This document shows, one piece after another, positions 4,058 to 37,461 of a DNA stretch of 64,000 bases. The stretch is from a virus, in the IMG/VR virus record IMGVR_UViG_3300022213_000237, positions 105,568 through 169,567 of that record, one strand, 5' to 3'. Every line of letters starts with the position of its first letter. Within the stretch, counting starts at the first letter, position 1. The notes below the pieces were generated by a model. It did not search any database, had not been told where the DNA came from, and saw only the letters and a list, made by a program, of their open reading frames with translations. The position numbers and the translations under genes were made by a program.

Positions 4058-6694
4058 TTACTTCATCATGGTCATCACCAGATTTGGCTCAATTATTTTC
4101 CCGTTGTAAGAGCTGTCCGGCTTGAGGTAGTTTTCAATAGGGCCTTCAATAGTATCTTCGCCCATGTATCCGGTATTGGGCAACAATCCATCTAAATCCT
4201 CACCGTGTGTGAGGCCGTGCTTAAAGTTAGTACGAGAAACAATAGCTCTACCAACCTCAGCACTCCTACTTTTGGCCACATACAAAGTGATTCTCTTGTT
4301 TACTTGGGCCACAGGTGACCGATTAAGAGTGATTACGTTGCTGGCTGCCGTCATCGGACCCCAAGCCTCAAGAACGTCTTCCATTCTAAGCAAGCGATGT
4401 GTGGTGTCACCGCGATTAACCTTAGAACCTTCGCGATTGGTTTGAATAGCCAATAGGGCGTGGAAATCGCACTCGAGTGCCAGCTGGACGTAGTGCTCGT
4501 ATACGATTTCGATGATGGAACGCATAGCAAGCGCGCCTTTACCAGCTAAAGCTTGATTGGTGGTCAATTTAGCTGGATAGTCGGAAACCAGGAGATCAAA
4601 TCCTTTACCGGTTCGGGCTTTGCGTTCGTCCTGGACGCGACGAATTATGGGCATTATTTCCTCGACCGCCATTCCCGCTTTATTATATGGAATGTAGACG
4701 CAATTTTTCGCGATAATGTTCGCGACATGGTTCAGTAATTGAACCCCCTCAGGGGTTTTATAAAGGCGGAAAAGATCTTCTTCGGACCCCTTCAGACACG
4801 CCTTTAAGAGTTTGTTGCGAATATCGTGAGGGCGGCCTTCATGCGTCATCAATAGCACGCTATTGCCGTTCATAATGTTGTGACGAGCAACTGTAAGAAG
4901 GAAGGTGGTGTTGTGTGTAACCGTTAAATCGCCGAGCAAACAAAGACGGTCGCCATCAAGCGTAAATCCATAATAGTCGCCCTCACCGCAAGGCTCAACT
5001 CTAAATCCAGATGTATCGCACGGTTTACTGCCATCTTTGGCGCGTTTACGTTCTAATCTGACGGGAATTTCGGATAAAGCTCCGCTTAGACTCAGCGATA
5101 CATACTGACCCTCGGTTCCGTTTTGATCGGATTTTGTAATAAGCCTCTCTCCAACTTTAAGACCTAAGCTTCGGGCCAAGAAGGCGATGTCTGCTGCCAG
5201 ACGTTTGGATTTTTGGGTAATTTCTATCACTTTATCTCCTGCCCATCCGTCAGTATCTACGATTCCAGCCAACAACTCTAAACGTTGTTGACGAGATCCA
5301 GTAAGATATAAATGAGGGATATGTTTACATCCTAAAAGGTCTAGGCCTCTGAGACTAGAATGGGCGGTGCCTGACCCGATCGCCCGTATCAACCAAGCTC
5401 TATTGTGTGAATTGCCCACTACAGAGATGCCGTGACCACAGGACCTGATCCATGATTCCCACGTTAACGCCAATTCGTCATCCATAGTGGTTAGCACGGC
5501 GCCGGACGAATGCCCATCACCCAACCACATCCCCAGAACGTAAGCCGGAATCGGCTGATTTTGCTGCTGGAAATCTAACCCAACCCTCCAGAGCTTCATT
5601 CTGTTTTTCCAGTTGTTGGATTTCTCTAAATATTCATTAAGAGGAATGTTAACAATATCCCCCTTCCATAAGCATGGCTCTCCGTTCCCGCTAGTTGACG
5701 AATATCTGCCCCTTTGCCTTTCTTTGGGTTCATCGTCTGCACTACATTTTAAGCTTAAGATGTGGACATCGTTACAGATCCACGGATTGCCCCCAGTTTT
5801 GGGGATAATCTTAAATAATGGACCATGTCCTTTGGTGGTGGACAACACTTTGCGAGGTGCCCCATCCGGGCCCATCAATAAATCCCCCGACTTAATGTCC
5901 TCTACAGGAACTCTATGTCCCGAAAACATCAGTATTTCTGTACCTTTACCCCAGCATTTCCCAACGTTAGATGGAGCGAGAACAACAGTGGTGTCACCGC
6001 GTTGCAGTCCACCAGTCGTCTTAATAATACGACCTGTACCGGGCAGACCTTTAGCTTTTTCATCCGCATTTTGTTCCCGCTCGACGGCGCCATCGAGCAA
6101 TGCCTCATCAAGCAAAGGCAGTCCCGTCGACAGAGCCGCTTTCACGTCGTCGTACTTCTGCTGTAAATAGACTTCTGGATTGAGAAACGAAACCTCACGA
6201 CCTTCTTCGAAAGAAGCGACACCAAATTGCTTAACCGCGTCTTCCATGACGGCAGCGACTTCGCTCCATCGTTGGCGATTCCAGAGGTTTGAGGTCTTGA
6301 GAATGGCGTTCTGTAAAACTTTCGATTGTAGCCACGCAGTCAACTCCAATCTGATTTTATCCCATCTGATATCGGCTGTACGCTGCAGAGCGATATTCAG
6401 ACGCGCAGTGAGTCTTTGAGCGGTATCGCTACCCTCGATCACCCACTCCCTGGAGCCGGTCAACTCGCTCTGGGTTGGTGGTCTTCCAAGTGGGTGACTT
6501 ATGGACTGGATTATTTTGTATAATTTTTCGTCATACGGATTCACGAACCAGTCCGGCTGAACCCTGTGCCCCACCTGCATGAAGATCTTTGGGTCTTGAA
6601 TGAGGTGGCCGATGAAGGCCGACTGGTAGGCGTCGCTTAGCGGTAGGGTAGCGCTTACAGGTATTTCCACTTTAAGGGTTTCAACTGACGACAT
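4058..6694 (-). CDS. DnaB-type replicative DNA helicase interrupted by an intein
   Basis: The precursor is about 878 residues; removal of the 349-residue intein leaves a helicase of about 529. The N-terminal part resembles the DnaB N-domain (LPLSDAYQSAFIGHLIQD, FMQVGHRVQPDWF). The C-terminal part is a RecA-fold ATPase whose Walker A loop is split: APSNVGK precedes the intein and TTFLLTVARH follows. Further motifs include VLLMTHEGR, LLVSDYP (Walker B region), the arginine-rich EVGRAIVSR segment and a C-terminal NLVMTMMK tail. It would be the hexameric fork helicase working with the primase at 8848. The ATG at 6694 was chosen because AAGGAC lies just upstream; an in-frame GTG at 6736 lacks a good ribosome site. 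It is the first gene leftward of the 6695-7008 divergent region. Confidence 0.87.
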   Translation of the reverse strand: MSSVETLKVEIPVSATLPLSDAYQSAFIGHLIQDPKIFMQVGHRVQPDWFVNPYDEKLYKIIQSISHPLGRPPTQSELTGSREWVIEGSDTAQRLTARLNIALQRTADIRWDKIRLELTAWLQSKVLQNAILKTSNLWNRQRWSEVAAVMEDAVKQFGVASFEEGREVSFLNPEVYLQQKYDDVKAALSTGLPLLDEALLDGAVEREQNADEKAKGLPGTGRIIKTTGGLQRGDTTVVLAPSNVGKCWGKGTEILMFSGHRVPVEDIKSGDLLMGPDGAPRKVLSTTKGHGPLFKIIPKTGGNPWICNDVHILSLKCSADDEPKERQRGRYSSTSGNGEPCLWKGDIVNIPLNEYLEKSNNWKNRMKLWRVGLDFQQQNQPIPAYVLGMWLGDGHSSGAVLTTMDDELALTWESWIRSCGHGISVVGNSHNRAWLIRAIGSGTAHSSLRGLDLLGCKHIPHLYLTGSRQQRLELLAGIVDTDGWAGDKVIEITQKSKRLAADIAFLARSLGLKVGERLITKSDQNGTEGQYVSLSLSGALSEIPVRLERKRAKDGSKPCDTSGFRVEPCGEGDYYGFTLDGDRLCLLGDLTVTHNTTFLLTVARHNIMNGNSVLLMTHEGRPHDIRNKLLKACLKGSEEDLFRLYKTPEGVQLLNHVANIIAKNCVYIPYNKAGMAVEEIMPIIRRVQDERKARTGKGFDLLVSDYPAKLTTNQALAGKGALAMRSIIEIVYEHYVQLALECDFHALLAIQTNREGSKVNRGDTTHRLLRMEDVLEAWGPMTAASNVITLNRSPVAQVNKRITLYVAKSRSAEVGRAIVSRTNFKHGLTHGEDLDGLLPNTGYMGEDTIEGPIENYLKPDSSYNGKIIEPNLVMTMMK
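4910..5956 (-). mobile_element. Intein with LAGLIDADG endonuclease in the helicase P-loop
   Basis: This in-frame 349-codon insertion begins with Cys (codon at 5954-5956) directly after the Walker A lysine and ends with the dipeptide His-Asn before Thr. Block A reads CWGKGTEILMFSGHRVPVED, block B includes the NDVHILSL segment, and the end is LLGDLTVTHN. Two LAGLIDADG-type motifs are visible, YVLGMWLGDGH and LLAGIVDTDGW, so the homing endonuclease looks intact. It is a class 1 cis-splicing intein at a common helicase insertion point, the nucleotide-binding loop, where the host protein is inactive until splicing. Ligated exteins would restore SNVGK-TTFLL. Confidence 0.93.
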
Positions 6695-7008
6695 GTATGT
6701 CCTTAGTCCTTTATCGGGGATACCGACATATACCACCCCGATCTTTTCGATCTTTTCGATAATATTAAAGCCAAGTTAGCTCGTTGAGGAAGATCACACG
6801 CTACCTGTTCAAACAGATGGCGTCTTCGCTTCTAACAGATAGCTGCTCGATCGTGTGCGCTTCAGTGCTCTATCTCCTTCCTAAAGTGTTTGACACCGAC
6901 AGAATATCGTGTCATTATGTCACAGCAACTCAATCCAGCTTTATTTCTCGTCGCACCTGAACACATACAGCCATTAACACTGAACAAACGAGCAGTTTGG
7001 AGACCATT
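6695..7008. promoter_or_regulatory. Divergent intergenic region between the leftward helicase operon and the rightward zinc-finger gene
   Basis: About 310 bases without a convincing gene separate two divergent units. It holds a rightward sigma70-like promoter at 6890-6918, an AT-rich stretch near 6757-6772 that could serve as a leftward -10 region (TAATATTAT on the minus strand), a CGATCTTTT direct repeat near 6740-6765, and two copies of AACAGAT near 6811-6840. The last two may be operator-like. A 66-codon minus-strand open frame at 6862-7062 covers part of it but has no support. Confidence 0.5.
6890..6918 (+). promoter_or_regulatory. Sigma70-like promoter for the 7009 gene
   Basis: A perfect -35 hexamer TTGACA at 6890-6895 is followed after 17 bases by CATTAT at 6913-6918 (four of six matches to the -10 consensus). 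It lies about 90 bases before the TTG start at 7009 and points rightward, so host RNA polymerase could read it early in infection. Confidence 0.55.
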
Positions 7009-8619
7009 TTGAAAACCGAAAACGCCAATCCCCGCAAAAACCCTGAACTTCAGGGCGCACATATCCTGAAGTCGTACCTCAAGAGTTTGAAGATCCCCTT
7101 CGAAATTGGAGGCTCGGAGAATTCTGTTGAAGTCAAAACCGTTGACGGACAGAAGACCGTCTCTGTGGTGGTTGGCTCCGGCTCAGGTCAGATTCAAATT
7201 GATCCTCTAATCATTACCTCTTTTGAGCTATCTAAGTCTTTGAGTGCCCTGCATCTGGTTACTGAAGCCGCTGGCTATGGGCGACCAAATCCAATTAGCC
7301 GTGGTGCTCAATCGACCGGTCGAGTTAACTATCTCGACAACTTCGAAGACGTGTATTTGCGGCACTCAATTTTTCGTCGGTCCCCGAATCAAAACGATGC
7401 CGACTTAGAGCCATTCTTACCAACAATTAAACGTTGCGCCCGCAAAGCCATGTTTCGTTACAAGAACGTTTTCCAAGCCATGGGCTTTAGCGAGGGAGAT
7501 CTCATCACCACCGGCATGGTCTACACCGTTTCTTATCTCCATCACTACAGTTACGCTCCCGACCATATTGATAACGTTAAATTGCTGACAGACTTTCTGA
7601 AACAGCGCTTTGGCGAGATGGCTAAAATCACTTACAAGAAAGCCCTGAACGCAACCTGTTTGCCGCAAGCCGTGAGAGCTAACGCGCTGAATCACGAAGA
7701 TGAAGAAACCTCTTACATCGATACCTACGCAGAATCCGAAGAATCGTCTCCTGACGACGAATATGGAGAAGATGAATTCCGAGTCACGTTCGCTGGCGGT
7801 ATTGTCCGCACTCTCATCGTGAAAAACGACGGCATGCTCGGCCTCGACCTTTATCTCGACGGCAGGAAGTTAAGACCTTCGGAGGCGCGGAGCTTGACCG
7901 AAGATATGCGGCAAGGTCGTGTTAAAAAGGAACGAGTACACGATGTTCTCCCCGAACCGGAAGAATCGGAAGCCTCTATGCAAGCCCGTGCCCTTGCTGC
8001 CCGCAAGGAATTGATTGAAAAACTTAGGGCCATGGATACGGAAACCAGAACCGTGGTACTCGGTTACGCGGCCCTGTCACGAGACTATGCTCCGGATGCT
8101 CGACGAGAGGCACGGAATCTTTGCGAAGAATTGGTGTGTCCGCAATGCGAACGTAAAGTTCCGTCAGGTGCTTATTGTCTGCGATGTGAAGTTGGTGTCG
8201 TACCGCTACTCGGCGTGGATTACATGGCTTTTCGGGAAAAACTGGAAAAGGAGCATCACCCCATGGCAGAAGCTATGTCTGCGCACGTGCCTGAATCGGA
8301 AATTCGAGCCCGCGCCAAGAAACCGGTTGTTCAAACTACGGTGTCTCTTGCTGACGCCACCGAAGCCAAACCGATCGAAATCGTCAAAGTCGTACCCATT
8401 ATTTCCGCAATCGATCGAGAAGCTCTCAAAAAACAGTTGGAAGATGACTTACTTAAGCGACTACCTGCCACCGGGACTTGTCCTTTTTGCAAGAGGGTCT
8501 TGCCACAAAAAGATTTTGGTGTTAGGGTGGCCAACGACAAAACAACGGGTCTACCCTCGCGTGCATCTAGACAATCCCGTTGCCACCCTTGTCGAGGCAA
8601 AAAAGCAAAGAAAGGATAA
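7009..8619 (+). CDS. Two-zinc-finger protein with sigma factor-like region, uncertain function
   Basis: The 536-residue protein starts at a TTG at 7009 with GGAGA six bases upstream; an in-frame TTG at 6997 lacks that spacing. Residues about 125-215 (FLPTIKRCARKAMFRY, GFSEGDLITTGMVYTVSYLHHY, KALNATCLPQA) loosely recall sigma70 region 2, where a charged helix is followed by a DLI/DLV-type motif. After an acidic linker come two metal sites: CPQC with CLRC at about residues 377-394 and CPFC with CHPC near the C-terminus. The C-terminal zinc ribbon is clearly related to the next gene, 8627-8851. It is the first rightward gene after the promoter, so an early regulator is a reasonable guess. DNA or RNA polymerase binding is not proven. 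Confidence 0.75.
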   Translation: MKTENANPRKNPELQGAHILKSYLKSLKIPFEIGGSENSVEVKTVDGQKTVSVVVGSGSGQIQIDPLIITSFELSKSLSALHLVTEAAGYGRPNPISRGAQSTGRVNYLDNFEDVYLRHSIFRRSPNQNDADLEPFLPTIKRCARKAMFRYKNVFQAMGFSEGDLITTGMVYTVSYLHHYSYAPDHIDNVKLLTDFLKQRFGEMAKITYKKALNATCLPQAVRANALNHEDEETSYIDTYAESEESSPDDEYGEDEFRVTFAGGIVRTLIVKNDGMLGLDLYLDGRKLRPSEARSLTEDMRQGRVKKERVHDVLPEPEESEASMQARALAARKELIEKLRAMDTETRTVVLGYAALSRDYAPDARREARNLCEELVCPQCERKVPSGAYCLRCEVGVVPLLGVDYMAFREKLEKEHHPMAEAMSAHVPESEIRARAKKPVVQTTVSLADATEAKPIEIVKVVPIISAIDREALKKQLEDDLLKRLPATGTCPFCKRVLPQKDFGVRVANDKTTGLPSRASRQSRCHPCRGKKAKKG

Positions 8620-8626
8620 AGACAAT

Positions 8627-8851
8627 ATGCTTTGGAGAGCGATGCAAGCGAAGATGGTTCGCAAGACGGCTGAAAAGACACCAAAGATGAAAGAGTGCCC
8701 AAAATGCTATCGGAGGCGCAGTGTCGAAAAGTATTTTGGATTTCGGACCCAGCACGGACTAGATGGTAGGCCTCAGAGATCTATGGTCCAGTCCTACTGC
8801 GTGGACTGTCGCAAAGAAGCTTCAGCGGGCTCAAAACTACACACTAATTAA
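8627..8851 (+). CDS. Small zinc-ribbon protein, relative of the preceding gene's C-terminus
   Basis: The 74-residue protein starts at ATG 8627 after AAAGGA at 8611-8615; the open frame extends upstream inside the previous gene but that part is out-of-frame shadow. It holds CPKC and CVDC pairs about 33 residues apart. Key positions (Cys-x-x-Cys, KxFGxR, G-x-P-x-R, QSxCxxCR) line up with the last 45 residues of the 7009 gene product, so the two arose by duplication. Its last codons overlap the convergent primase gene by 4 bases. Function unknown; nucleic-acid binding is likely from the zinc ribbon. Confidence 0.7.
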   Translation: MLWRAMQAKMVRKTAEKTPKMKECPKCYRRRSVEKYFGFRTQHGLDGRPQRSMVQSYCVDCRKEASAGSKLHTN

Positions 8852-9894
8852 TGCCCTAAGAGACCGCCAAGCGAGATATAAATCTTCCCCCTAGGTTCTG
8901 GCTTGGCGGTCTTGAAGGCTTCGTAAACCCACTCTTCAGACATGTCTCCCAAGTCTTTTTCGTTAGCTTCAGAATCAAGATTTAAAAAGTCTTGTGGCGG
9001 CTGCAACAAGTAAATTTCCAAGTCTTCCGACAGGTCGTATGCCAACTTAGTGATTTCGGCTCCGGCATCGGGATCAAGAGCGATATAAAGCTTTTTAACT
9101 GAGCGCTTAATCGTACCTATTTGTTCCGCCGACACGGCCTTACCCATGGATGCCACATTCCCACCACATTTATGCGCCTTGATGGCGGTAATAGGACCCT
9201 CGGTGAGAATGCAATGCTCTGAACCCTTAAGACGGTCCTGGAACATGAGCTGTCGCTGCCCCTTGCCCACAAGACTCTTGCTTGTCAAAATCTTCGGCAC
9301 CTTGATGACGCGTTGCTGTTCTTCGTCCCAACGTTCAGTAGGGCCAATAAAGCGGGCTTGCCAACCTATCAGTTTGCCGTCTACCTTTACAGGGAAGATG
9401 ACACGTTGATCTACGGGACTGTATTTAAGGTCATAGGTGGTAACATGTTCGGCACGTAAGCCGCGAGAGTGCAGATACAAAGCACCCTTCCTGAATTTCT
9501 CCCACTCGTCCATGCCACAAAAATCAGGCGCCCAAGAAACTTCGGTGCATGTGGTGACAACGGCTGGAGGCGGGAATGCGTCCTCGTCTTCGTCCCATAC
9601 GTCATCTAGTTGGATATCTAAAAAGGTAGCTGACGAAGGAGTGTAGCCGTAAAGCTTCTTACAGATTTCACCGATGGGTATTCCCAACAATTCGGTGAGC
9701 GCGTACTCAGCTTTTCCCTTAAAACCTGTAGCCCTACAATAGTAGCAGACGAATCCGCCACTATCTTTATACATTGCGAGCTTATCCTTTTTAAGACAGC
9801 GGGGACAGGTGAATACATAACTAGTCGCATTGGACCTGTAATGTACCCCGCTGTCTTCAATGAGCTTGGCTAAAGCGCTTTGGTCTATTGCCAT
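8848..9894 (-). CDS. DNA primase (zinc-binding plus Toprim)
   Basis: The 348-residue protein makes RNA primers for the replication fork. A zinc ribbon is formed by CPRC and CYYC with cysteines at about residues 30, 33, 50 and 53. The Toprim catalytic domain follows, with the LTEGPITAIKAHKCGG glutamate motif and the ALDPDAG aspartate motif in correct order, as in DnaG-type and T7 gp4-type primases. It lacks a helicase-binding domain of DnaG length, so it is a compact phage primase. It lies 14 bases downstream of the RecA-like gene in the same operon and would pair with the DnaB-type helicase at 4058. Zinc and Toprim residues are present. Confidence 0.88.
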   Translation of the reverse strand: MAIDQSALAKLIEDSGVHYRSNATSYVFTCPRCLKKDKLAMYKDSGGFVCYYCRATGFKGKAEYALTELLGIPIGEICKKLYGYTPSSATFLDIQLDDVWDEDEDAFPPPAVVTTCTEVSWAPDFCGMDEWEKFRKGALYLHSRGLRAEHVTTYDLKYSPVDQRVIFPVKVDGKLIGWQARFIGPTERWDEEQQRVIKVPKILTSKSLVGKGQRQLMFQDRLKGSEHCILTEGPITAIKAHKCGGNVASMGKAVSAEQIGTIKRSVKKLYIALDPDAGAEITKLAYDLSEDLEIYLLQPPQDFLNLDSEANEKDLGDMSEEWVYEAFKTAKPEPRGKIYISLGGLLGH

Positions 9895-13694: not shown

Positions 13695-15788
13695 TTACTC
13701 CTGGGAGGTTTCTTCCGGCTCTTCTGAGAGTGGGGGTGCAACTACTAATATCGCGTCGATCGCAAAAGGTCTGTTGGATTTGTATCGCGTGAGATGCAGT
13801 ATCGCGATCGACCCAGCCATATCCTTAGGAGCTTCGAGATGTCCTGATTCTCGATCCGGCCACTTAACGAATAAGAATTGTTCACCATCTACGTCAAAAA
13901 TTACTTCTACGGCAGATTTAGTTCCACCCTTGTAGCTGAATCGTCTTTCGGAAATGATATATCCAGCTACCGTGCAGGCAACATGCTGGCCATCATAAAT
14001 CTCAAATTCTTCGTTATAGTATCTAAGCTGTGCGCCATCAACCAGCGGCACGGCTTCAAGTTTACGGTCGCTGCCGATACCCATCTGACGCTTCATGTCC
14101 GCAATACTTTCTGCAGTACTGGGCAGATACCAATAGTTGCCTTTACCGTCGCTAGTGACACCGTCGATCCGCATATCAACCAAAATAGGCACCACGCTGT
14201 TGGTGTAAATTGGCAAAATGTTTTTCTGCATCTGGAATCTAGTCAACGGATTTAAGTCCACGTACTTTTTATCGACTTTACCTTTTTTAGCTTTCTTTCC
14301 TGTAAGGGCCTGAGTTACATTCGCCACTTCTTGTTCGTAATAATCAAGTTTGTCGTTAACGTGTCTCAATTCTGACGGGAAAAGGCTGTCCATAACGCCA
14401 GAAACAATTAGCTTGCCGACTACGCCTCTATTTAGGGCGCTGAGTCCGGCTTTAACTTTTTGCTTACCTTTGGCGTCAAGCATTGGAGTACCGTCTTCGT
14501 TTACTCGCAATGTGGCTCCAGCCATCTTTTTGCGGACTATTTTTTCAACAAAATCGGTGACGCTTAAATATGGGCGACCAGCGCAAAGTTCGGCATGAGC
14601 TGTGGGACCAACGCCGTTAATAAAGCTCAAAGGCGCTCGGATTCTATCGCCCTGGATTTCAAATTCGTCGCCCGAATACCGCACATCCGGTAAGTCGATC
14701 CACTGTTTGCAATAACGCCAAAACTTTTCAGCAATTTCCTTCTTGTCGGCGTTTTTTAGCACCGCACACCACCACTCGTTGGGGTAGTAATGTTTTAGAT
14801 AGGCGCAAGCATAGGCGGTGACGGAATAGCAGATTGAGTGACTTTTGTTAAAGCCGTATTGTCCAAAGGTGACTATCTGGTTCCAGACCTTCTCCGAGTC
14901 TTCTTTACCGATTTTCTCGGAAGCTTTGGCAATAAAGTTTGGATACGCTTCCAATACCTTAGCCATCTTCTTCTTCGCAATGTTAGTGCGAAAGGTATTG
15001 GCTTCTATGCCAGTGCAACCAGTCAAATGCTGATACAACTTCTGTAATTGTTCTTGGTATACAATTACGCCGTAAGTCTCTGGAAGCAGTGCGTCTAGTG
15101 CTTTAATTGGATCGGATGGAGGAAGGCCTTTAGCTCTGTTGGCGTATTCAACCAACATATTATGTTCTCGGCCAGTAATCGGGTCCTTGACCTTAGCATC
15201 CAGAGGACCTGGGCGATCTAGAGCCGTGAAGGCGCTTATTGCTTCAATCGAGTCAATAGCTTTCACACCCGCCGATTTGTCGTAGTTAAATTGAGTCAAC
15301 CATTGTTTGGCGGAGTTGGTATTGAGCTGGAATACGGTTTCTGTTTTACCTTCGGCAATGTCGTTGAATACGGCTTGGTCTTCGGGAAGGTCCCAAATAT
15401 CCATTGGCACACCAGTCGTGGGATTGGGTACGATACGAAATCCTGGAACTCGGCGACCATTAAGTTTGATATCGGATTCAAAGTCTCGGTCTGGGTATTT
15501 TGCTTGAATGAGCTTAATTGCGGCACCGATGTCCTTCAGGGAATTGAGCCCGAGGAAATCCATTTTCAAACCACCTACGGCCTCAACACTCCCCGCCGTG
15601 TATTGGGTGGTACGAAATCCGCTGATAGTGGTCGTGGGTATGAAATTACTGATGGGCTCATTTGCGATGACAAAGCCGCAATTATGCATTACAACGCCAG
15701 AGGCGTGAACGAAACTATGGTGTTCGTGATTAACAGATAAATCATATACCTGTTCTGGTTCTTTTATTCGTGCTGATATTATCTTCAT
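13695..15788 (-). CDS. dnaE: DNA polymerase III alpha subunit, C-terminal half with split-intein C-fragment
   Basis: The 697-residue product begins with a 36-residue IntC (MKIISARIKEPEQ to GVVMHN) followed by Cys and the C-extein. The extein continues the polymerase: GFVIANEP completes the HAxG motif, KMDFLGL supplies the third catalytic aspartate, TFGQYGFNKSHSICYS is the conserved finger motif, and HYYPNEWWCAVL follows. The C-terminal 250 residues hold a helix-hairpin and OB-type region. It starts in an ATGA overlap with the HNH gene stop, so the two are coupled. After trans-splicing with the product of 16447-18621 it should give a polymerase of about 1,292 residues. It cannot be a working polymerase alone because two catalytic aspartates are on the other gene. 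Confidence 0.9.
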   Translation of the reverse strand: MKIISARIKEPEQVYDLSVNHEHHSFVHASGVVMHNCGFVIANEPISNFIPTTTISGFRTTQYTAGSVEAVGGLKMDFLGLNSLKDIGAAIKLIQAKYPDRDFESDIKLNGRRVPGFRIVPNPTTGVPMDIWDLPEDQAVFNDIAEGKTETVFQLNTNSAKQWLTQFNYDKSAGVKAIDSIEAISAFTALDRPGPLDAKVKDPITGREHNMLVEYANRAKGLPPSDPIKALDALLPETYGVIVYQEQLQKLYQHLTGCTGIEANTFRTNIAKKKMAKVLEAYPNFIAKASEKIGKEDSEKVWNQIVTFGQYGFNKSHSICYSVTAYACAYLKHYYPNEWWCAVLKNADKKEIAEKFWRYCKQWIDLPDVRYSGDEFEIQGDRIRAPLSFINGVGPTAHAELCAGRPYLSVTDFVEKIVRKKMAGATLRVNEDGTPMLDAKGKQKVKAGLSALNRGVVGKLIVSGVMDSLFPSELRHVNDKLDYYEQEVANVTQALTGKKAKKGKVDKKYVDLNPLTRFQMQKNILPIYTNSVVPILVDMRIDGVTSDGKGNYWYLPSTAESIADMKRQMGIGSDRKLEAVPLVDGAQLRYYNEEFEIYDGQHVACTVAGYIISERRFSYKGGTKSAVEVIFDVDGEQFLFVKWPDRESGHLEAPKDMAGSIAILHLTRYKSNRPFAIDAILVVAPPLSEEPEETSQE
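15681..15788 (-). mobile_element. Split intein C-terminal fragment (IntC) of DnaE
   Basis: These 36 codons contain block F (VYDLSVNHEHHSFVHASG) and block G (GVVMHN followed by Cys), in the same size range as the Npu and Ssp DnaE IntC fragments. The terminal Asn and +1 Cys needed for splicing are present. It pairs with the IntN at 16450-16728. Confidence 0.9.
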
Positions 15789-16558
15789 GGATCTATCTTA
15801 CTAAGTAGCTTTCCGATCTCCAACATCACTTCGTACGATACATATCTTCCACGCATCCAATTACAGCGTAAACAAGACGGTACACAGTTTTTCTTAATGT
15901 GACCTATGTCATTGTTTTTACGATCCAGACCGGTAGCAGGTCTTCCGCAATAACAACAAGGAGAACTGCGAGCCTCTAACACGTCATCCACGGTAAGATC
16001 AAAATCCCTTCTTTTGTCTTTATCTCTTCTAACGTAAGAGTGAAGAAGTTTTTTAGCTGCCCGAAGAGTGTTTTGAATTGGGGAGTCTTTAAATCTAGTA
16101 GACTTTACACATTCTTTACACCAATAATTCTGTAGACGTATCACTGACCAACGCTGTTTCCAGCGATGGCCTACAGCGCATTCCCAAGTCGAATGGCATG
16201 AAGCTTTGTCGGACCATTCAATCAACTTACCTCCCTTGAGCTTAACGTATTCGATTGCCTCCTTTTTTAGTGGGCGTTGGCGACGAGAACAAATCCTACA
16301 TGGATTACGCGGCGGTTCAACCGAACGATAACTTCCTAATATTGTACTTCCACATTGGATATGGGTAAGTTTCAGGTTAGGTTCTGAAACCCCCTTGTAG
16401 TCTCCAGGATTTTCTACTCGATACCCCCATGAAAACAACTGAGATTCTATGAATTCTTTACTGTGCTTGGTTCTACCAGATCCACGCCTAGCTCGAATGC
16501 CTTTTGAATTCCCATCCACCCCTCTACGGTAAGTATTTGGTGGTCTGGAGTACAACAT
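15785..16558 (-). CDS. HNH endonuclease lying between the two halves of the split DnaE gene
   Basis: The protein has zinc-finger repeats (CGSTIL with CRICSR, CHSTWEC with CKEC) and a C-terminal HNH domain with CCYCGRPATGLDRKNNDIGH and NCVPSCLRCNWMRG, which has the two CxxC pairs, the DR motif and the CN residues of HNH nucleases. The first half recognises DNA and the second cuts. The start is uncertain: ATG 16558 lies within the previous gene in another frame, and GTG 16519 is also possible; the first conserved residues (SKEFIESQLFSWGY) begin about at the end of the IntN gene. The stop overlaps the IntC gene start as ATGA. Position between split-intein halves matches the fractured-gene arrangement known in phage metagenomes, where a free-standing nuclease spreads the locus. 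Confidence 0.82.
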   Translation of the reverse strand: MLYSRPPNTYRRGVDGNSKGIRARRGSGRTKHSKEFIESQLFSWGYRVENPGDYKGVSEPNLKLTHIQCGSTILGSYRSVEPPRNPCRICSRRQRPLKKEAIEYVKLKGGKLIEWSDKASCHSTWECAVGHRWKQRWSVIRLQNYWCKECVKSTRFKDSPIQNTLRAAKKLLHSYVRRDKDKRRDFDLTVDDVLEARSSPCCYCGRPATGLDRKNNDIGHIKKNCVPSCLRCNWMRGRYVSYEVMLEIGKLLSKIDP

Positions 16559-18621
16559 AGCTTTGCTCCATTTTCTAATGTGTATTCCGTTATCGTTCGA
16601 ACCCCCTGATTTATTAAAAGGGCCGTGGCGTTGGCGCCTTGTCCTGTATTTATTATTTGTTCGTTGCATTCGACAATATCCTTTATTTGTCCGTCAGAAA
16701 GTAAGATTGCCTCCCGCGCCGGAAGACAGGCGTGGCGGCTTTTTTGTCGTGCGATACCCAACATTTTCTTAACGATTTCCCATTCTTGTGGGTATCTCTG
16801 AATATACTCCTTAAGCTCCTGAGATTCGTCAATCAAACCTCTTATTTCTTTTCCGTCGTCACCCGTGTACCCAAACACAAAATCGGCATCATCAACACCC
16901 TGAGGCGGCATCGGAAGCTTTTTGCATAAGACTTCAATCTCAGCATCTACGTGGCCATGTAGTGAACGATGAACATCTTTGATAGATGACTTGAGACGTA
17001 GCATCGTATTCGTTGAAATTGCGGCCACGCAATCGGCAAAGCGATTAAACAACCACCCGCGCTCGGGGTCGATAAGGGGGTCTCTATCCGGAAAATCCAT
17101 GTCAATGTCCGGCAGCTTCCCGTCCTCGATACGGTCCTTCGTCAGAAAGCGGTCTTCTGAGAGGTCGTACTTGAGTGGGTCGACGTGAGTGACACCAAGA
17201 TAGTAAACTGCGGATAGGCCGCCTGCGGAGCCACGACCCGCACCGCTAAGTAATCGTTGTTGTTCGTAAAAGGAACAAACTTCTTCGGCAATAAACAAGT
17301 AAGGCAGGAGATCTATTTTGCCGTTGTGATGTAACAGTTCTACTTCTTTCTTTAAACGGGATACGCGTGTCGGATTACCCCAATCCATGCGCCCGTGTTT
17401 GTCGAGCAGGATCTTAAAATACTTAAGAGTATTTGATGGATAGAATGACGCAGGTAAGGATTTGCGATCTGTGAATTTGAAGTCCTTGAAACGCTGACTC
17501 CATTCAATATTTGAGTCTACCATGGATTCGAAGTCGCTCTCCGACATCCCCATCACACCTTTAAAGTAAGACCATGCTTCAGCAGAATCGAACCTGTGAT
17601 ACGAATTTGCGAATTTCCACGAACCACCAGAGCTTCCGAGACGGGAATCCTGGACAATCTTTTCATCTTTGGTGGCGAAATGCGCATCGTCGGAAAGCAA
17701 TATTTTATCGCCACGAGTTCTAGCGAGATGCAACATGAATCGATTGGCGGCCAACTGAACATCGCCATCAGGACACCAAGGCTGGCATTCATTCTTTAGA
17801 AAGTCCTCAACGAGCTTGCACTCGACAATGACTTTGGGTTCGCGTTCCTCCCATTTACGGTTATTCATTACCGCAACCAACAAGCCAACATCCTTACCCC
17901 GTGAAACAGCTTTGGCTAAGTCTTCGGCACTGACGCCATCCGAGAATTTAGTGGTCTTAAGCTTTTTCTCTTTCCAGAACTTAAATTTCTCTCCGCCTTC
18001 AATAGTAACAAAGACACCATTGACCCAGTATTTGTCACAAACATGCGGAAATACTTCAACGTAGAACTTGTTTCCAAACATCGACTTGAGACGTTCGTAG
18101 TATTTAATGGCAATGTCTGGGCGATCCGAAAGCAGGTGGCGTTGCACCATGCCGATTAGACATCCGGAAGTAGCGGTAATGTTGTATTGTGAGAGTCTTT
18201 CTAGATTTTCCCAAGAGAACAACGGCTTCCTTTCGGAGCCGTGCTGCTCTGCGCGAGCATCAGCTAAAGAAAGTTCTTTGACTAACGCCTCGTATCCCTT
18301 TTGGTCTTGGGCGTGAAGCGTAATGTGGTAGTATTTGTTGTAGGAGGCGAAAGTTCCTTTAGCGTCCTTTTCGATACCTGCTGCCTTGAGAATCGGGCAA
18401 TCATCATCTCTAAAATAGCCCTCGACACCCAAAATAGGAATAATGTTGTTCTTTTTGGCAAGGTCGTACACTTCACGACATGCGCCCATAGAACCGTGAT
18501 CAGTACACGTTGTCACTCCCGTACCAAGCTGTATTTCTCTTTCTACAAACGCTTCTGGGGTGGAAGCCGTATCTAATGATTGTTGGTGACAGTGAGGAGT
18601 TGGAAAATTCTTAAAAGCCAT
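16447..18621 (-). CDS. dnaE: DNA polymerase III alpha subunit, N-terminal half with split-intein N-fragment
   Basis: The 724-residue product has an N-terminal PHP domain (PHCHQQS metal histidines, CTDHGSMG, GVEGYF) and the polymerase palm with LPDIDMDFPDRD, whose catalytic aspartates are at about residues 505 and 507. The GAGRGSAGGLS motif precedes it. N-extein ends GIARQKSRHA at residue 631; the remaining 93 residues are IntN. The site is the conserved HAxG motif of DnaE, unlike the CFN site of the cyanobacterial DnaE split intein. The gene ends in TAG at 16447, well short of a full DnaE, which is explained by the split. It is the replicative polymerase after trans-splicing with 13695-15788. 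Confidence 0.92.
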   Translation of the reverse strand: MAFKNFPTPHCHQQSLDTASTPEAFVEREIQLGTGVTTCTDHGSMGACREVYDLAKKNNIIPILGVEGYFRDDDCPILKAAGIEKDAKGTFASYNKYYHITLHAQDQKGYEALVKELSLADARAEQHGSERKPLFSWENLERLSQYNITATSGCLIGMVQRHLLSDRPDIAIKYYERLKSMFGNKFYVEVFPHVCDKYWVNGVFVTIEGGEKFKFWKEKKLKTTKFSDGVSAEDLAKAVSRGKDVGLLVAVMNNRKWEEREPKVIVECKLVEDFLKNECQPWCPDGDVQLAANRFMLHLARTRGDKILLSDDAHFATKDEKIVQDSRLGSSGGSWKFANSYHRFDSAEAWSYFKGVMGMSESDFESMVDSNIEWSQRFKDFKFTDRKSLPASFYPSNTLKYFKILLDKHGRMDWGNPTRVSRLKKEVELLHHNGKIDLLPYLFIAEEVCSFYEQQRLLSGAGRGSAGGLSAVYYLGVTHVDPLKYDLSEDRFLTKDRIEDGKLPDIDMDFPDRDPLIDPERGWLFNRFADCVAAISTNTMLRLKSSIKDVHRSLHGHVDAEIEVLCKKLPMPPQGVDDADFVFGYTGDDGKEIRGLIDESQELKEYIQRYPQEWEIVKKMLGIARQKSRHACLPAREAILLSDGQIKDIVECNEQIINTGQGANATALLINQGVRTITEYTLENGAKLCCTPDHQILTVEGWMGIQKAFELGVDLVEPSTVKNS
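16450..16728 (-). mobile_element. Split intein N-terminal fragment (IntN) of DnaE
   Basis: This 93-codon fragment starts at Cys (codon 16726-16728) with CLPAREAILLSDGQIKDI (block A) and carries CCTPDHQILTVEGWM (block B with the TxxH motif) and ELGVDLVEPS, close in order and length to the Npu/Ssp DnaE IntN. It has no endonuclease, as usual for split inteins; that function is on the neighbouring HNH gene. Confidence 0.9.
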
Positions 18622-21975: not shown

Positions 21976-23850
21976 TTACTTAATTGGACACGCACCCGAC
22001 TCACACTCTGATCCGTCAATGTCGACACCACCAGAGATATCGCCTTCTAGGTCTTTGACTTTAGAGCTTAGTGTCTCGTATTGCTCTCGAGATATAGCTT
22101 CTTTGGGAGCCTGGACAAATCCGTGGTCGTTGTGACACAAAAAGCTAATGGTTTTGATATATTGAAGATTATCTGCAAGCCATGACTTAAGTTGCGGAAT
22201 CTCTTCTTTTTTGTAGTAAACGGTAACACTCACGCTTTGGTCTGCCCAATGCTTTTGTGCAAACTTGACAGTATCTAACTGTTTCCACGTGTTCCAGTCT
22301 TCGTCGGCTACCGGGGCTCCATCTGGAGCTTGTTCGTAAAAATCTACGACGACAGTATTGTGGTCCAGGCTGCCATCAAAACGCACCACGGGTTCAATAT
22401 GATGACCGGCAGCAAGCAATTGAGATACAATAGGATCTGAAGCGCTGAATCTAATTCGCTGAATGTAATAACGGCTGTAGGCGGCGTGAATCCCCTCATA
22501 CCCCTGCATATCCATCATCTTGGACATTGTGCCGGAGGGCTTAACGACCGTGGTCCGGATTGAGCGATTAACTCCATATTGCTTGGAAAATTTCTCGTCT
22601 TCGTCCTGGATTGCGGCATAAACACGATCCAAGGTAGGAGCCGTGAACAGAGGAGATTGCAGGCAGCCGGTGATGCCGATACCTACGCGCATATTTCGCT
22701 TAATGACTTCTTGCGCTCCTGGGATGTGGTATTTTTGCATTGCCACACGCTTGGCCCAACGGAACATAGACCTCGCGGCAAACTCAAATTCCTCGGCATC
22801 AATCAAGTTGGGAAGCGGCAGCTCGGCAAGATTGCATGGTTCAGCTTTTTTGGCTCCGCCTTCTAGTGTTGCTTCCGCGCACGGATTCGTTCCGTTTGCT
22901 GTATCTTTTTTCAATTCACCCATTCGTCCGTATTTTTGGATATTGGTGATATTCACAATACCAAATGGCTCACCATGCTCGTACGTTTTCCAGAAAGAAG
23001 GGTGAAGGTCTTCGACATCATCACAAGCCACCGATAAATTCGCCATGGCTCGGTGTGTTGGGATAGGTCCTAGATCCCATCTTTTGGATTTGAGATATTC
23101 CTTGTCCCAAGCATCGCCGATGATGATGATGGCGCTGCGGCGTACGTTGCCAGCGACTACCATTTCGCCAATCATGCAGAGAACATCCATCGCATCTATA
23201 GGGCGTACCATCTTACCTGAACGCGACGACAGCAGTTCGCATAGCTTCTCCACCATCTTAATGAGTGGTGCAGGTCCAGAAGCAGTGCCACCAAACCCCT
23301 TAATGAGTTCTCCCGCACCACGAATACAATACGTAGAATAGGTAAACGATTTGCCGGTTACAAAATATGCTTCGAGCACGCGCCACGTTAGTTGTACCCA
23401 GCCTTCACGGCTATCAGGCACAATAAAATCTGCATCCTTAGTGAGTTTGTGCTCAATTTGGACACCGTTTTTAACGCGCGGCAATTTACTAGTGTATCTG
23501 TGTTCGATAGAGAGACCGACTCCGCCACCAAGCATCAGAAGATCTTGGGCCATGACAAAATTTTCCCAATCTTCGGAGGTAGTGAACCAACAGTTATTTA
23601 GCGCAACACCACCCAAAGCTTTTTGACTAGGCGCACCTGAGTACCACCAGCCGCGACCTGCCGGACCGGCTTTGCGATTTAGGAGTAGGTACTCTAGCTC
23701 TTTGAGTTCTTTTTCGGGTACATTGAAGCCGTCAGTGTTTCCACGGATAATACGCTCTACGGTGTCAGGGAACTTTTCAAGTATGCCAGTATCCTTGCGA
23801 GCATAGGTACGAGTATATACTACACGGCTCAGGTTCGACCACGGTTTCAT
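21976..23850 (-). CDS. Class II (adenosylcobalamin-dependent) ribonucleotide reductase, monomeric type
   Basis: The 624-residue protein converts ribonucleoside triphosphates to deoxy forms. It matches the Lactobacillus leichmannii-type enzyme: NNCWFTTSEDWENF region early, GGVGLSIE, then NPCAEATLEGG and EPCNLAELPLPNL with catalytic cysteine and glutamate, GSLDHNTVVVDFYEQ later, and a C-terminal CESGACPIK redox pair. Length is somewhat shorter than the about 740 residue leichmannii enzyme. It needs no radical-generating small subunit and works with or without oxygen, but needs host-made adenosylcobalamin. RBS AAGG lies just upstream of ATG 23850. It supports phage DNA synthesis with ThyX and dNMP kinase at 56859-58513. 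Confidence 0.9.
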   Translation of the reverse strand: MKPWSNLSRVVYTRTYARKDTGILEKFPDTVERIIRGNTDGFNVPEKELKELEYLLLNRKAGPAGRGWWYSGAPSQKALGGVALNNCWFTTSEDWENFVMAQDLLMLGGGVGLSIEHRYTSKLPRVKNGVQIEHKLTKDADFIVPDSREGWVQLTWRVLEAYFVTGKSFTYSTYCIRGAGELIKGFGGTASGPAPLIKMVEKLCELLSSRSGKMVRPIDAMDVLCMIGEMVVAGNVRRSAIIIIGDAWDKEYLKSKRWDLGPIPTHRAMANLSVACDDVEDLHPSFWKTYEHGEPFGIVNITNIQKYGRMGELKKDTANGTNPCAEATLEGGAKKAEPCNLAELPLPNLIDAEEFEFAARSMFRWAKRVAMQKYHIPGAQEVIKRNMRVGIGITGCLQSPLFTAPTLDRVYAAIQDEDEKFSKQYGVNRSIRTTVVKPSGTMSKMMDMQGYEGIHAAYSRYYIQRIRFSASDPIVSQLLAAGHHIEPVVRFDGSLDHNTVVVDFYEQAPDGAPVADEDWNTWKQLDTVKFAQKHWADQSVSVTVYYKKEEIPQLKSWLADNLQYIKTISFLCHNDHGFVQAPKEAISREQYETLSSKVKDLEGDISGGVDIDGSECESGACPIK

Positions 23851-27389: not shown

Positions 27390-27674
27390 TCATTCTTCCT
27401 GCTGATCAGTTTGCTCGTACTTTAGACGGTGAGCTTCTTCTCTTTCTTTAAAGAGTCTTTCCGCTTCCGAATATCTTTCAAGACGTACGGGCCTAATTCC
27501 GTCATCGAGCACTTCCATGGCTTGAGAAGTGGCAGCCCCTCGGTCATGAACTCCGATTGAGGAACAATACTCGTGAGAGCAATGAGTTGTACCCATACTT
27601 TCTTTAAATGCTTCCAAAGTCATCAGCCTCTTGGTCTTGTGTCCAAGAGAGCATGTAAAATTGTAGACTGGCAT
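27390..27674 (-). CDS. Small FmdB-like zinc-ribbon protein
   Basis: The 94-residue protein starts MPVYNFTCSLGHKTKRL, the FmdB pattern of Met-Pro-x-Tyr-x-Phe-x-Cys with a GH soon after, and carries a second cluster THCSHEYC near residue 32. The rest is charged helix. FmdB-like proteins are small zinc ribbons of unclear regulatory role. The ATG at 27674 overlaps the GroEL stop as TGATG; the GTG one codon upstream is less likely. Moderately sure of the fold only. Confidence 0.6.
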   Translation of the reverse strand: MPVYNFTCSLGHKTKRLMTLEAFKESMGTTHCSHEYCSSIGVHDRGAATSQAMEVLDDGIRPVRLERYSEAERLFKEREEAHRLKYEQTDQQEE

Positions 27675-30430
27675 CACTTCATCATCCCAGAATTTCTGTA
27701 GTAATCATAAGACGCTTCGGCTTCGGAACGCTCAAGAGTGGTATCGCGTGGGAACACAACCACCCCGCCTAGGGTCCCAAGCTGGGAGGCGATTGAAATT
27801 GAGTTACGAACGGCTTCCAGAACAGCCGGAAGCGAATCCACAACACCCGAACCACGAGCTTCCTTGAATTGAGAATCGAGGGCGTCGAAGATGACGGGTT
27901 CGTCCTCTTCTAACAAACCCTTCATTTCTTCCATTCGATTGAAAATTTCTTCGTCCGTATATCCGCAGTTCCGGAGCAAGCGCTCGACAGGCTCGACAAG
28001 CGACTTGCACAAAACCTCTTTAACTACCTGAGACTCAAAGGTCTCTAGTGTTAGAGAGTAATTGGTTACAAGCATCTCGATTGTCTTAAGCAGGGTCCAG
28101 CCGCCGCCAGGCAGAGCCCCGTGTTTGACTGCACCTCTCCAAGCACATGCCGCATCTTCGGCTCGATCTCGTTTCTCTCTCAATTCTCCAGAAGTAGGGG
28201 CGGAGATAATAAGCTTGGCGATGCCGCCAGAGATTTTACCACGACGCTCGTTGAGGATATTCTGCTCTACTTGTGACTCAGCCTGCGGAATTTGGGCCTC
28301 AATCTCTTCAACGCGGGCCAACACCAAACCTTCATCGGCGTGGCCGACGACGCTGGTGCGGTAGCGGGTGGATTCGAAGAACTCTAACTCCGGACCAATA
28401 TCTTCCAGTGTTCCTTCGACGGCAGGGCGTGTCACCGGATCAAAGACAACGCTACCAGTAACCGCAGATAGGTCGTGGAGCAGGTCCAATTGACCAGACT
28501 GCATGGCGTTTCGCGGCAAAGTTAAAGGGAATACATTAATGGTACGATAATCTGACCAATTTCCGGCCATATCTTCGATGGCTTGTTGTGAAAATGCGGT
28601 TGCCACCACCACCACGTTGCGAGTGGCTTTGTTTACTTCGGGTCCGCCCCAGCGTTCACCGATTTTAGTCAAAATAGGTACGACCGTAGCCCAATCGTTG
28701 ATTGATCCGTTATACAGCACGAACACCGGTTTTTCTAGGTATACGCGGTTATGTGCGGCATCGTTCATGAAAATACTAAAATACTTACCCACACAGTCTT
28801 CAAAGCCTGTTGAGATAGGATAGCCTTTAAGGGCCTCGACCTTGTATCCTGAAGGTCCTGATTGTTCAGTAAGAGTGACGTTGCCTTCGTCGCCCGTGAG
28901 TTCGAAACATTGAGCCACAGCTTCCGTCAATTCAACATCGCCGTTCGTCGAACACATGGCCACAGACTTAAGGAGATCTCCGTCCGGCTTAATAGCCAAC
29001 GATTTAACAAAAGGCTCTATCTCGGTGCGGAACACTTTTTCCATGGCACGAACAACGCGTTGTGGAGAGATTTTTGGATTATCTTTGCAAAAGTTATACG
29101 TACGTCGCACAAAGGCTTCGGCCAAGACTGTGGCCGTAGTGGTATTATGTGTCAATACACAGCCATCAGTAATATAAAGAGAGTCCTCGTTACTTACCTT
29201 AATACACTGCATTTCTTCAAAACGGTCGGTGACCTCTACATCTATGATTTTGTCCCCGTACTTATCCCCTCTTAATTCGTGGAAGCGGTGAATTGGGGTG
29301 TCAGAAAACGAATCTGGGTCCTGGTCTCGGGTATGTATACGATAATACAGTGAGATACCCAAGCTTTCGCATAAGTTAAAGAAATCTACAGCAAGTTTAT
29401 CGCCCACAGTGCTAAATTCAAACAATCCTCGCGGATTCACGTATCCGTCGGTGTCAATAAGTCCTTGGAGTAGTTCTTTTCTTGAAGTCACTGATCCAAG
29501 TAAGTATTCGGAGGGAATGGATTTTGAATAACTATCTTGGTTTCTGATACCAACGGTCTCGATCAAGTCTCTGATGGTTTTTTTCTCGGAAGTAACCCCT
29601 TGAATTTTGACCCGGAAAGAGTTTCTTTCATCTACCCAAGTAGTTTTAAGAAAAAGACCTTGAGGTAGCTTGGATTCTACCTTTTTAATGACATGTTCTT
29701 TAGACTTACCCAGTGACAGTTCCACAGAGCCGGTATCAGACAAACTACCGTCCCCCAACAAGACTCCAACCAAATATGGGTCTAGTGGGGTAGCGTTGTC
29801 ACGGAACATCACAGGCCCGGCTTTGGGTACATAATACTTGTATTTATTGTACCCCTCCCCAGTTTGGGTCTTAAAATCTTTAGCGATTTCACGAGTAGTT
29901 AGTGTTTTATGTGACCCCCTGTTGGTGACCACTGACCAGAGATGATCTTCACAACATTCAACAACCTTGTTACCAGAGAAGCTCACTTTCACAAGGCGTT
30001 TCTTACCTTTTGGATATACCCCCAAAACCTTTTGTGTGGTTCCGTTAGAACCACAAATAGTCATTCCTACCTTGATATCCTCCATACGTACGTACCCGTC
30101 CGGAGTCAGGACCTTACTGTATAAAGGTTGAGGTCCATCGCCTGCTTCCGTGGCCGTACGTACGGATGCGTCTCGAGCCAGGGTCATAATAGAATGACGC
30201 ACAGGATTGTCGTAACCCAAAGCCCGAAAGACAGTAACCCCGTCTTTAGTCACCAAGTCAGGGACACCAAACTCTTGGCGCTCTATGGCCACGACCTTAC
30301 CACCAGGACCTAGAGTCGAGCCCACGATTTGAGAAATCTGTTTCATGGTATCGAGTACGAGTCCGTCGAGACTCTCTCCTTCGGTTACCATTATTTTTGC
30401 CACTGACTTTACTTTACGATGTGACGTCAT
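27674..30430 (-). CDS. groEL: GroEL-type chaperonin interrupted by an intein
   Basis: The precursor is 918 residues; without the 330-residue intein a chaperonin of about 588 remains. GroEL signatures are VGSTLGPGGKVV, LVTKDGVTVFRAL, EAGDG then TTTATVLAEA (the ATP-binding loop), ERRGKISGGIAKLIISAP, KRDRAEDAACAWRGAV and LPGGGWTLL. The apical domain is divergent, and the C-terminus ends NSGMMK instead of a GGM tail. ATG 30430 is chosen because CGGAG lies nine bases upstream; codons further upstream to 30520 are in the divergent promoter region. It likely folds phage head or enzyme proteins and would need a ring-shaped lid partner; a GroES-like gene lies at 35128. First leftward gene from the 30431-30847 region. 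Confidence 0.9.
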   Translation of the reverse strand: MTSHRKVKSVAKIMVTEGESLDGLVLDTMKQISQIVGSTLGPGGKVVAIERQEFGVPDLVTKDGVTVFRALGYDNPVRHSIMTLARDASVRTATEAGDGPQPLYSKVLTPDGYVRMEDIKVGMTICGSNGTTQKVLGVYPKGKKRLVKVSFSGNKVVECCEDHLWSVVTNRGSHKTLTTREIAKDFKTQTGEGYNKYKYYVPKAGPVMFRDNATPLDPYLVGVLLGDGSLSDTGSVELSLGKSKEHVIKKVESKLPQGLFLKTTWVDERNSFRVKIQGVTSEKKTIRDLIETVGIRNQDSYSKSIPSEYLLGSVTSRKELLQGLIDTDGYVNPRGLFEFSTVGDKLAVDFFNLCESLGISLYYRIHTRDQDPDSFSDTPIHRFHELRGDKYGDKIIDVEVTDRFEEMQCIKVSNEDSLYITDGCVLTHNTTTATVLAEAFVRRTYNFCKDNPKISPQRVVRAMEKVFRTEIEPFVKSLAIKPDGDLLKSVAMCSTNGDVELTEAVAQCFELTGDEGNVTLTEQSGPSGYKVEALKGYPISTGFEDCVGKYFSIFMNDAAHNRVYLEKPVFVLYNGSINDWATVVPILTKIGERWGGPEVNKATRNVVVVATAFSQQAIEDMAGNWSDYRTINVFPLTLPRNAMQSGQLDLLHDLSAVTGSVVFDPVTRPAVEGTLEDIGPELEFFESTRYRTSVVGHADEGLVLARVEEIEAQIPQAESQVEQNILNERRGKISGGIAKLIISAPTSGELREKRDRAEDAACAWRGAVKHGALPGGGWTLLKTIEMLVTNYSLTLETFESQVVKEVLCKSLVEPVERLLRNCGYTDEEIFNRMEEMKGLLEEDEPVIFDALDSQFKEARGSGVVDSLPAVLEAVRNSISIASQLGTLGGVVVFPRDTTLERSEAEASYDYYRNSGMMK
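29144..30133 (-). mobile_element. Class 3-like intein with LAGLIDADG endonuclease in GroEL ATP-binding loop
   Basis: A 330-codon insertion splits AGDG from TTTATVLA. It starts with Pro (codon 30131-30133), not Cys, Ser or Thr. Block B has DHLW at intein residues 63-66, block F has a Cys at residue 310 in MQCIKVSNEDSLYITDG, and it ends VLTHN before Thr. That Trp-Cys-Thr set is the hallmark of class 3 inteins, which use the block F Cys as first nucleophile. Two LAGLIDADG motifs (YLVGVLLGDGSL and LLQGLIDTDGY) indicate a nuclease. Removing residues from Pro to Asn restores a perfect GroEL GDGTTTATVLA loop. Confidence 0.87.
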
Positions 30431-30568
30431 TCTATATCTCTCCGGAGAGGTGCAATACTTCGTAATGCATATATACTGAATTGATCTTCGGCTATGAGAG
30501 CCACGAACAAGCTTTATCAACTCCAGGGGTTGCTAATGGTTTGGAGTCGAACGGTAAACGAGAGTGTG

Positions 30569-36856: not shown

Positions 36857-37461
36857 TTAAGCGCCCAGAAGACAATCTGACGAAAATAGAGCAGGAAGAG
36901 CTTACTAAGTATCGACGCAGTGATGGCTACGCGCCTTTAGCTGCGTCTACAGCCGTGCGGCTATATCAGTTGTTCTTGTTGGGCCACTCGTGTGAGGAGA
37001 TTGTACGTACAAATGATAACCGTTTTCCGTTGGGTATGGTGGTCGATGCTCGCATTCGTCATGACTGGGATCGTCGTCGCACTGAGTATATCGATAGGCT
37101 GTATGAAGAGGCTGGAAGTATGGTGCGACAACGTCAAGTGGAAAGCGCTATGTTTCTTGGGGATATGCTTGCTGCGGCGCATGCAGAGTATGGCCCCAAA
37201 TTCCAAAAGTTCATTCAATCAAGAGACCCGAAAGACCTGCCCCCAGAATTTAAAATAGATACTCCCACAAAATACAAGATGGTTATCGACGGCCTCATGA
37301 AGATAACTGGTCAAGACAAGAAAGATGCAGCCGGCGCAGCCGTCCAGGTTATCGGCAACAATGTTATGTTGCAGGAAAGCGGATCTAAAACCGTTACTTC
37401 TCAAGAAGGGTTTGACATTCTTAAGCAGCTAGAACGTCTTGATAGTGAAAAGGTGAAGTAA
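36832..37461 (+). CDS. Putative terminase small subunit
   Basis: The 209-residue protein lies directly upstream of the large terminase and ends in a TAATG overlap with it. The segment STAVRLYQLFLLGHSCEEIVRTNDNRFPLGMVVDARIRHDWDRRR resembles a helix-turn-helix DNA-recognition unit as in small terminases, followed by a helical oligomerisation region. No catalytic residues are expected. The call depends on position and HTH pattern. Confidence 0.65.
   Translation: MAEEDKEIIKRPEDNLTKIEQEELTKYRRSDGYAPLAASTAVRLYQLFLLGHSCEEIVRTNDNRFPLGMVVDARIRHDWDRRRTEYIDRLYEEAGSMVRQRQVESAMFLGDMLAAAHAEYGPKFQKFIQSRDPKDLPPEFKIDTPTKYKMVIDGLMKITGQDKKDAAGAAVQVIGNNVMLQESGSKTVTSQEGFDILKQLERLDSEKVK

Follow-up and report, generated by a model that had tools for sequence, protein, structure and literature searches.

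A viral DnaE polymerase gene divided into two halves by a split intein, with an HNH-type nuclease gene between them

A stretch of 64,000 nt (hereafter the window; positions 105,568 to 169,567) from the IMG/VR virus record IMGVR_UViG_3300022213_000237, which is 169,567 bases long, encodes a replicative DNA polymerase of the DnaE type in two pieces. The DnaE of Myxococcus phage Mx1 (OR576727) is a single open reading frame (ORF) of 1,289 codons, while that of the window consists of two ORFs on the minus strand. The N-half ORF (18621-16447, 724 aa) contains PHP and DNA_pol3_alpha domains and terminates in the N-terminal part of an intein (IntN), and the C-half ORF (15788-13695, 697 aa) opens with the C-terminal part of an intein (IntC). 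A gene for an HNH-type nuclease is located between the halves. The features of this locus were as follows:

16729..18621, minus strand: N-extein, residues 1-631, ending RHA (Pfam PHP 4.7e-23, DNA_pol3_alpha 9.7e-27; 69% identity to Mx1 DnaE)
16447..16728, minus strand: IntN, 93 residues from Cys632, starting CLPAREAILLS, with block B TPDH and a TAG stop (TIGR01445 E 1.1e-3, PF14890)
15785..16558, minus strand: HNH nuclease gene, 257 aa from the ATG at 16558 (PHROG 1035 endonuclease VII 4e-10, PHROG 559 HNH 3e-6)
15785..15788, minus strand: ATGA overlap, read from the sequence, of the HNH stop TGA with the C-half start ATG
15681..15788, minus strand: IntC, 36 residues MKIISARIKEPEQVYDLSVNHEHHSFVHASGVVMHN, ending His35-Asn36 (TIGR01443 E 2.9e-4)
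13695..15680, minus strand: C-extein from Cys+1 (CGFVIANEP) (Pfam DNA_pol3_finger 3.1e-21, HHH_6 1.7e-8; 61% identity to Mx1)

Domain searches assigned the PHP domain and the first part of the palm to the N-half, and the rest of the palm domain, the finger and the HHH domain to the C-half. In alignments with Taq Pol III alpha, two of the catalytic Asp (Asp505 and Asp507, in the PDIDMDF motif) fell in the N-half, and the third, Asp77 of the C-half ORF in KMDFLGL, fell in the C-half. Together the two halves display the PHP domain, the palm with three catalytic Asp, the finger and the HHH domain of a C-family DnaE. The first-pass annotation of this DNA had described an N-half with a 93-residue IntN, an HNH gene and a C-half with a 36-residue IntC, the catalytic Asp being divided between the halves (DIDMD in one, DFLGL in the other) and the HNH stop overlapping the IntC start, and all of these features were recovered. 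Its placement of the HNH gene in the gap held in that the nuclease is a separate ORF between the halves; the gene is not simply confined to the gap, but overlaps the final ~110 nt of IntN in another frame.

IntN ends one ORF and IntC begins another, and both match intein models; the TIGR01443 score exceeds its cut-off, while the TIGR01445 and PF14890 scores fall under theirs. The full set of canonical splicing residues was detected, namely Cys1, TPDH, VYDLSV with HHSF, the terminal HN and Cys+1. The nearest solved relatives of IntN were the cyanobacterial DnaE split inteins (Npu DnaE, 2keq, E 1.2e-5), the match to gp41-1 being weaker (0.72). The split into 93 and 36 residues lies at the customary position, natural split inteins being usually divided into ~100 aa and ~40 aa (PMC11923092). 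When the 93 and 36 residues were removed and the remainder joined, the resulting 1,292 residues aligned with Mx1 DnaE (RQKSRHA CAYVIA) without a gap across RHA/CGF, where the slash marks the insertion point. The joined exteins were also gap-free at the junction against the other uninterrupted viral homologues aligned. Therefore, the excised residues are not native polymerase. The third-position GC was 0.48 in the exteins, 0.40 in IntN, 0.36 in the HNH gene and 0.28 in IntC, and the lower values of the three inserted parts are compatible with a later acquisition.

The nuclease frame is open from 16669, and the best start is the ATG at 16558, which has GGAG 7 nt upstream. The encoded protein displays treble-clef-like modules followed by an endonuclease VII/HNH-type C-terminal domain. 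The Pfam search of this nuclease gave no HNH domain match and the sequence search of the PDB gave no match; the sole strong PDB match of its AlphaFold model was the HNH restriction enzyme R.PacI (3ldy, prob 1.00, E 2.4e-3). The protein is thus of HNH type in sequence and modelled fold, and cutting activity is predicted for it. Since the stop of the nuclease gene and the start of the C-half share the ATGA, translation of the C-half may well be coupled to that of the nuclease.

Pattern scans with the C-half or the HNH protein as single queries found no relatives, and profile scans were needed; these gave 72 distinct viral contigs, numbered below with an L. The RHA/C site was vacant in approximately 69 of them, and the +1 residue was Cys or Ser in 66 of the 70 that were aligned. 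Most empty alleles therefore already supply the nucleophile for splicing at this site. The same cassette was identified in two other viruses. L046 (IMGVR_UViG_3300049215_000481) reads RHA/CFPGGEAILLS, its HNH ORF is homologous to that of the window, and its IntC ends HN/CAFVIA. L116 (IMGVR_UViG_3300043449_002688), with a polymerase only 30-40% identical, reads SHA/CYVGETLILI; here too the nuclease ORF is homologous, and the IntC ends HN/CGFIIC. The identities to the window were 49% (L046) and 46% (L116) for IntN, 56% and 64% for IntC, and 46% and 36% for the HNH protein. These similarities had z-scores of 17-73 against shuffles, and the canonical splicing residues were retained in both viruses. 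A profile scan with the three gap nucleases detected no additional cassette.

The tree of IntN and IntC against known split inteins, which the first-pass annotation had proposed, grouped the split inteins of the window, L046 and L116 in one clade (ultrafast bootstrap, UFBoot, 98); this tree is based on a short alignment with Npu and gp41-1 as reference sequences, of which that of Npu agrees with the 2keq stretch matched by IntN. The annotation had also held that the insertion is not at the CFN site, which the cyanobacterial DnaE split intein occupies, and that the element is independent of this intein. Both statements agree with the results, as the insertion lies at RHA/CGF, the equivalent of the CFN site is uninterrupted in the window and the element branches in its own clade with its two site-mates.

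Two further contigs, L083 and L106, contained an intein at the identical DnaE residue. This intein differs from that of the window by a contiguous, cis-splicing layout in one ORF with the polymerase and, as read from its sequence, by a LAGLIDADG-like domain, and the two copies formed a separate clade (UFBoot 100). One DnaE site therefore serves two unrelated intein lineages. The odd pair of high-scoring segments in L106 had been considered a misalignment, which was rejected because the sequence contains the cis LAGLIDADG-like intein at the same site. Matches reaching into IntN or IntC in DnaE of Streptomyces, Pectobacterium and human-gut phages were also rejected; these genes are uninterrupted, and the extensions are chance alignments of native sequence. 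Comparison of IntN with isolate phages gave only weak matches, in terminase, ThyX, ribonucleotide reductase and Pol I, and none in DnaE.

Inteins at or near the CFN position were observed in other contigs. DnaE of L103 (3300036715_002050; same contig as L027) is split at the CFN position by a split intein (7840-9204) similar to those of Npu and Ssp DnaE (E 6e-17), and the gap holds a nuclease-like ORF (8079-9164). In L070 (7870-8909) and L091 (7840-9122) the intein is located two residues past the CFN site (FNK/SHS) in one open frame with the polymerase, and a nuclease-like ORF is nested inside it in another frame. An assignment of the nuclease-like ORFs of L103, L070 and L091 to EDxHD/Vsr is a tentative reading of their sequences; Pfam gave nothing and PHROGs only weak endonuclease matches.

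A different interruption was found in 15 of the 72 contigs (L025, L028, L029, L030, L031, L033, L045, L052, L060, L062, L070, L073, L075, L091 and L108), where DnaE is cut into two ORFs directly after the DIDMD palm motif. The last ~50 residues of the N piece are homologous to the latter half of IntN (hhalign prob 96.8, E 2e-10, against E 0.46 for the reversed control), and the C piece starts MKIxxIT. Several MAFFT alignments of these pieces were misplaced and were not used; an alignment with repeated query rows gave the register, after which the pieces were folded. The modules have no Cys1, block-B His or terminal Asn. In L028 a single TAG parts the two pieces in the same frame, and a model reading through this TAG, which is an artificial join (pLDDT, the predicted local distance difference test, 62 overall and ~60-83 in the module), matched 54 residues of 4kl5, an Npu DnaE intein, at 1.8 A (prob 1.00, though with an E of 0.03). 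From sequence and model, the palm-site module may be a decayed split intein kept as a putative clamp.

The matches to intein models, the gap-free join and the recurrence in two divergent viruses confirm that the element of the window is real and more than a chance resemblance. A split intein together with a free-standing nuclease explains the locus far better than the alternatives and is supported by the evidence above: the sole DnaE found in the record is encoded in two halves around the HNH gene, which are very probably rejoined by trans-splicing, with the HNH enzyme presumably acting in homing. A mobile cassette of three parts (IntN, an HNH homing-type endonuclease and IntC) would have entered the dnaE gene of an Mx1-like phage at the codon boundary RHA/C. 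The N- and C-halves, encoded on one strand, would be translated as separate proteins, and IntN and IntC would associate into a HINT domain that splices in trans by an N-S shift at Cys1, transfer to Cys+1 and cyclisation of Asn36. The product would be a single polymerase of 1,292 residues reuniting the three catalytic Asp. Co-infection would expose intein-less dnaE alleles to cutting by the HNH enzyme at RHA/C, after which repair would copy the cassette in.

Some observations weigh against this reading. Related phages seem to tolerate a permanently two-piece DnaE cut at another site. Because the 15 palm-cut relatives apparently use such a DnaE with no recognisable splicing residues, we infer, rather than state, that trans-splicing is required for a working polymerase, as the first-pass annotation had claimed. 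No further DnaE was found in the 169,567-base record; as this record carries no stated completeness, an intact copy elsewhere is conceivable, and the lack of another dnaE fits a need for splicing but is not proof of it. The AlphaFold model of the nuclease, built from a four-sequence alignment, is of modest confidence (pLDDT 71, ~85 in the C-terminal domain).

The palm-cut contigs also bear on the alternative that the halves form a two-subunit polymerase with no covalent bond between them, in which the intein pieces only hold the subunits together or are decaying. Their DnaE is cut by a module homologous to part of IntN that has lost its splicing residues, and PMC10448857 cites a ribonucleotide reductase that a homing nuclease has split and that still functions as two peptides. 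However, the window keeps Cys1, TPDH, the block-F Asp and His, HN and Cys+1, and L046 and L116 keep their splicing residues though the intein pieces are just ~50% identical. We consider a two-subunit enzyme very improbable. The presence of three ORFs in different frames, abutting or overlapping, would also be expected if two frameshifts had disrupted a contiguous HNH-bearing intein, through sequencing errors or in a pseudogene. Against this, three independent assemblies share the layout of three ORFs and differ in its junctions (the ATGA overlap in the window, a ~31-nt overlap in L116 and a ~46-nt spacer in L046), the nuclease has its own start and a ribosome-binding-like site, and the split falls at the usual natural position of ~100 aa/~40 aa (PMC11923092). 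Such a breakage is therefore more improbable still. The first-pass annotation had named as refuting evidence a related phage with an uninterrupted gene in which the residues called intein belong to the polymerase, and had proposed the alignment of relatives at RHA/CGF. In that alignment Mx1 and ~69 other contigs have no counterpart of exactly these residues, which in turn match intein families. No support was found for a native insert of a polymerase subfamily, and its probability appears negligible.

The split intein with its nuclease gene resembles several known systems. In Pseudomonas phage MIJ3 the PolB gene (orf153-155) contains a split intein with an HNH nuclease gene between the halves, and this intein was likened to that of Salicola phage SCTP-2 PolB (PMC6892783). 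As in the window, a replicative phage polymerase is encoded in two genes with a split intein and an HNH gene between them; by its description MIJ3 PolB is set apart as a B-family polymerase with another insertion site and an intein that begins with Ser as printed. The Aes123 PolB1 intein of Aeromonas phages is likewise split by nature and resides in a replicative polymerase of a phage, but this intein is cysteine-less, has halves of 120/39 residues and interrupts a B-family enzyme (PMC11923092). The cyanobacterial DnaE split intein (Npu/Ssp) shares with the window the host protein family and the type of split and is the nearest solved relative of IntN, whereas it occupies the CFN site instead of RHA/C and falls outside the three-member site clade. 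Its halves are encoded far apart in the genome, and no nuclease gene is known to accompany them. Dassa et al. in 2009 reportedly gave the name fractured genes to phage-like genes from environmental DNA that a split intein interrupts, a free-standing endonuclease being encoded in the break; these are said to involve other host genes and a nuclease of a non-HNH family. The first-pass annotation had assigned the locus to this class, and the assignment fits: the nuclease ORF stands between the halves and is fused to neither, and the unit recurs at the same site in L046 and L116, the window differing by its HNH gene and its host gene DnaE. Since MIJ3 PolB and the fractured genes have already been reported, the architecture is known, and the window adds another polymerase family and another site. 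Within the literature collection searched, no earlier report describing a phage DnaE with a split intein was found.

The gene order around the split polymerase is syntenic with that of phage Mx1, which has one-by-one counterparts with 29-71% identity for the primase-helicase, a hypothetical protein, the primase, a RecA-like protein, the ssDNA-binding protein, DnaE, a phosphatase, an SbcC-like recombination endonuclease and GroEL. Other genes of the window also contain inteins. The GroEL gene (27674-30520, minus strand) contains a ~330-aa LAGLIDADG-type intein (DG/PQPLYSK...LTHN/TTTATV), possibly of class 3 because its first residue is not a nucleophile, and in the DnaB-like primase-helicase gene (4058-6736, minus strand) the Walker A motif is the site of a Hom_end/LAGLIDADG intein; neither is present in Mx1. 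A LAGLIDADG_2 intein was observed in the terminase large subunit gene (37461-40721, plus strand), and an in-frame intein containing a DUF559-like nuclease domain in a gene adjoining the portal gene (43756-45756, plus strand). The ribonucleotide reductase (21976-23850, minus strand) has a class II insertion domain, while the syntenic region of Mx1 has a class Ia enzyme. Among the related contigs, further cis inteins were located at other DnaE positions in L063 and L035 (q313), L033 and L095 (q465) and L069 and L075 (q835); that of L075 is a mini-intein of 196 aa and L069 has its longer counterpart at the same site. DnaE of L099 is broken near the third catalytic Asp (7192-8011), with no intein seen and with coiled-coil-looking flanking ends.

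Taken together, the Mx1-like DnaE genes might show the life stages of a split intein: an empty site, a cis LAGLIDADG intein, a split intein with a nuclease (including one at the CFN site, suggesting a phage source of the cyanobacterial one) and a decayed HINT-derived clamp joining permanently separate palm halves. We hold this scheme as plausible but somewhat short of probable. With loci such as that of L103, where a nuclease accompanies a split intein at the CFN site, the question of where the cyanobacterial DnaE split intein came from becomes open to direct test. The palm-site relics prompt one to ask whether structural clamping can be the final role of an intein. Split inteins that are new and orthogonal would in addition serve protein ligation. 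For the virus itself, its only DnaE could depend on trans-splicing, the catalytic parts being made as separate proteins. One split intein in three copies that have diverged in nature, the many vacant sites and a competing cis intein at this residue together provide material for the study of homing, allele replacement and intein splitting.
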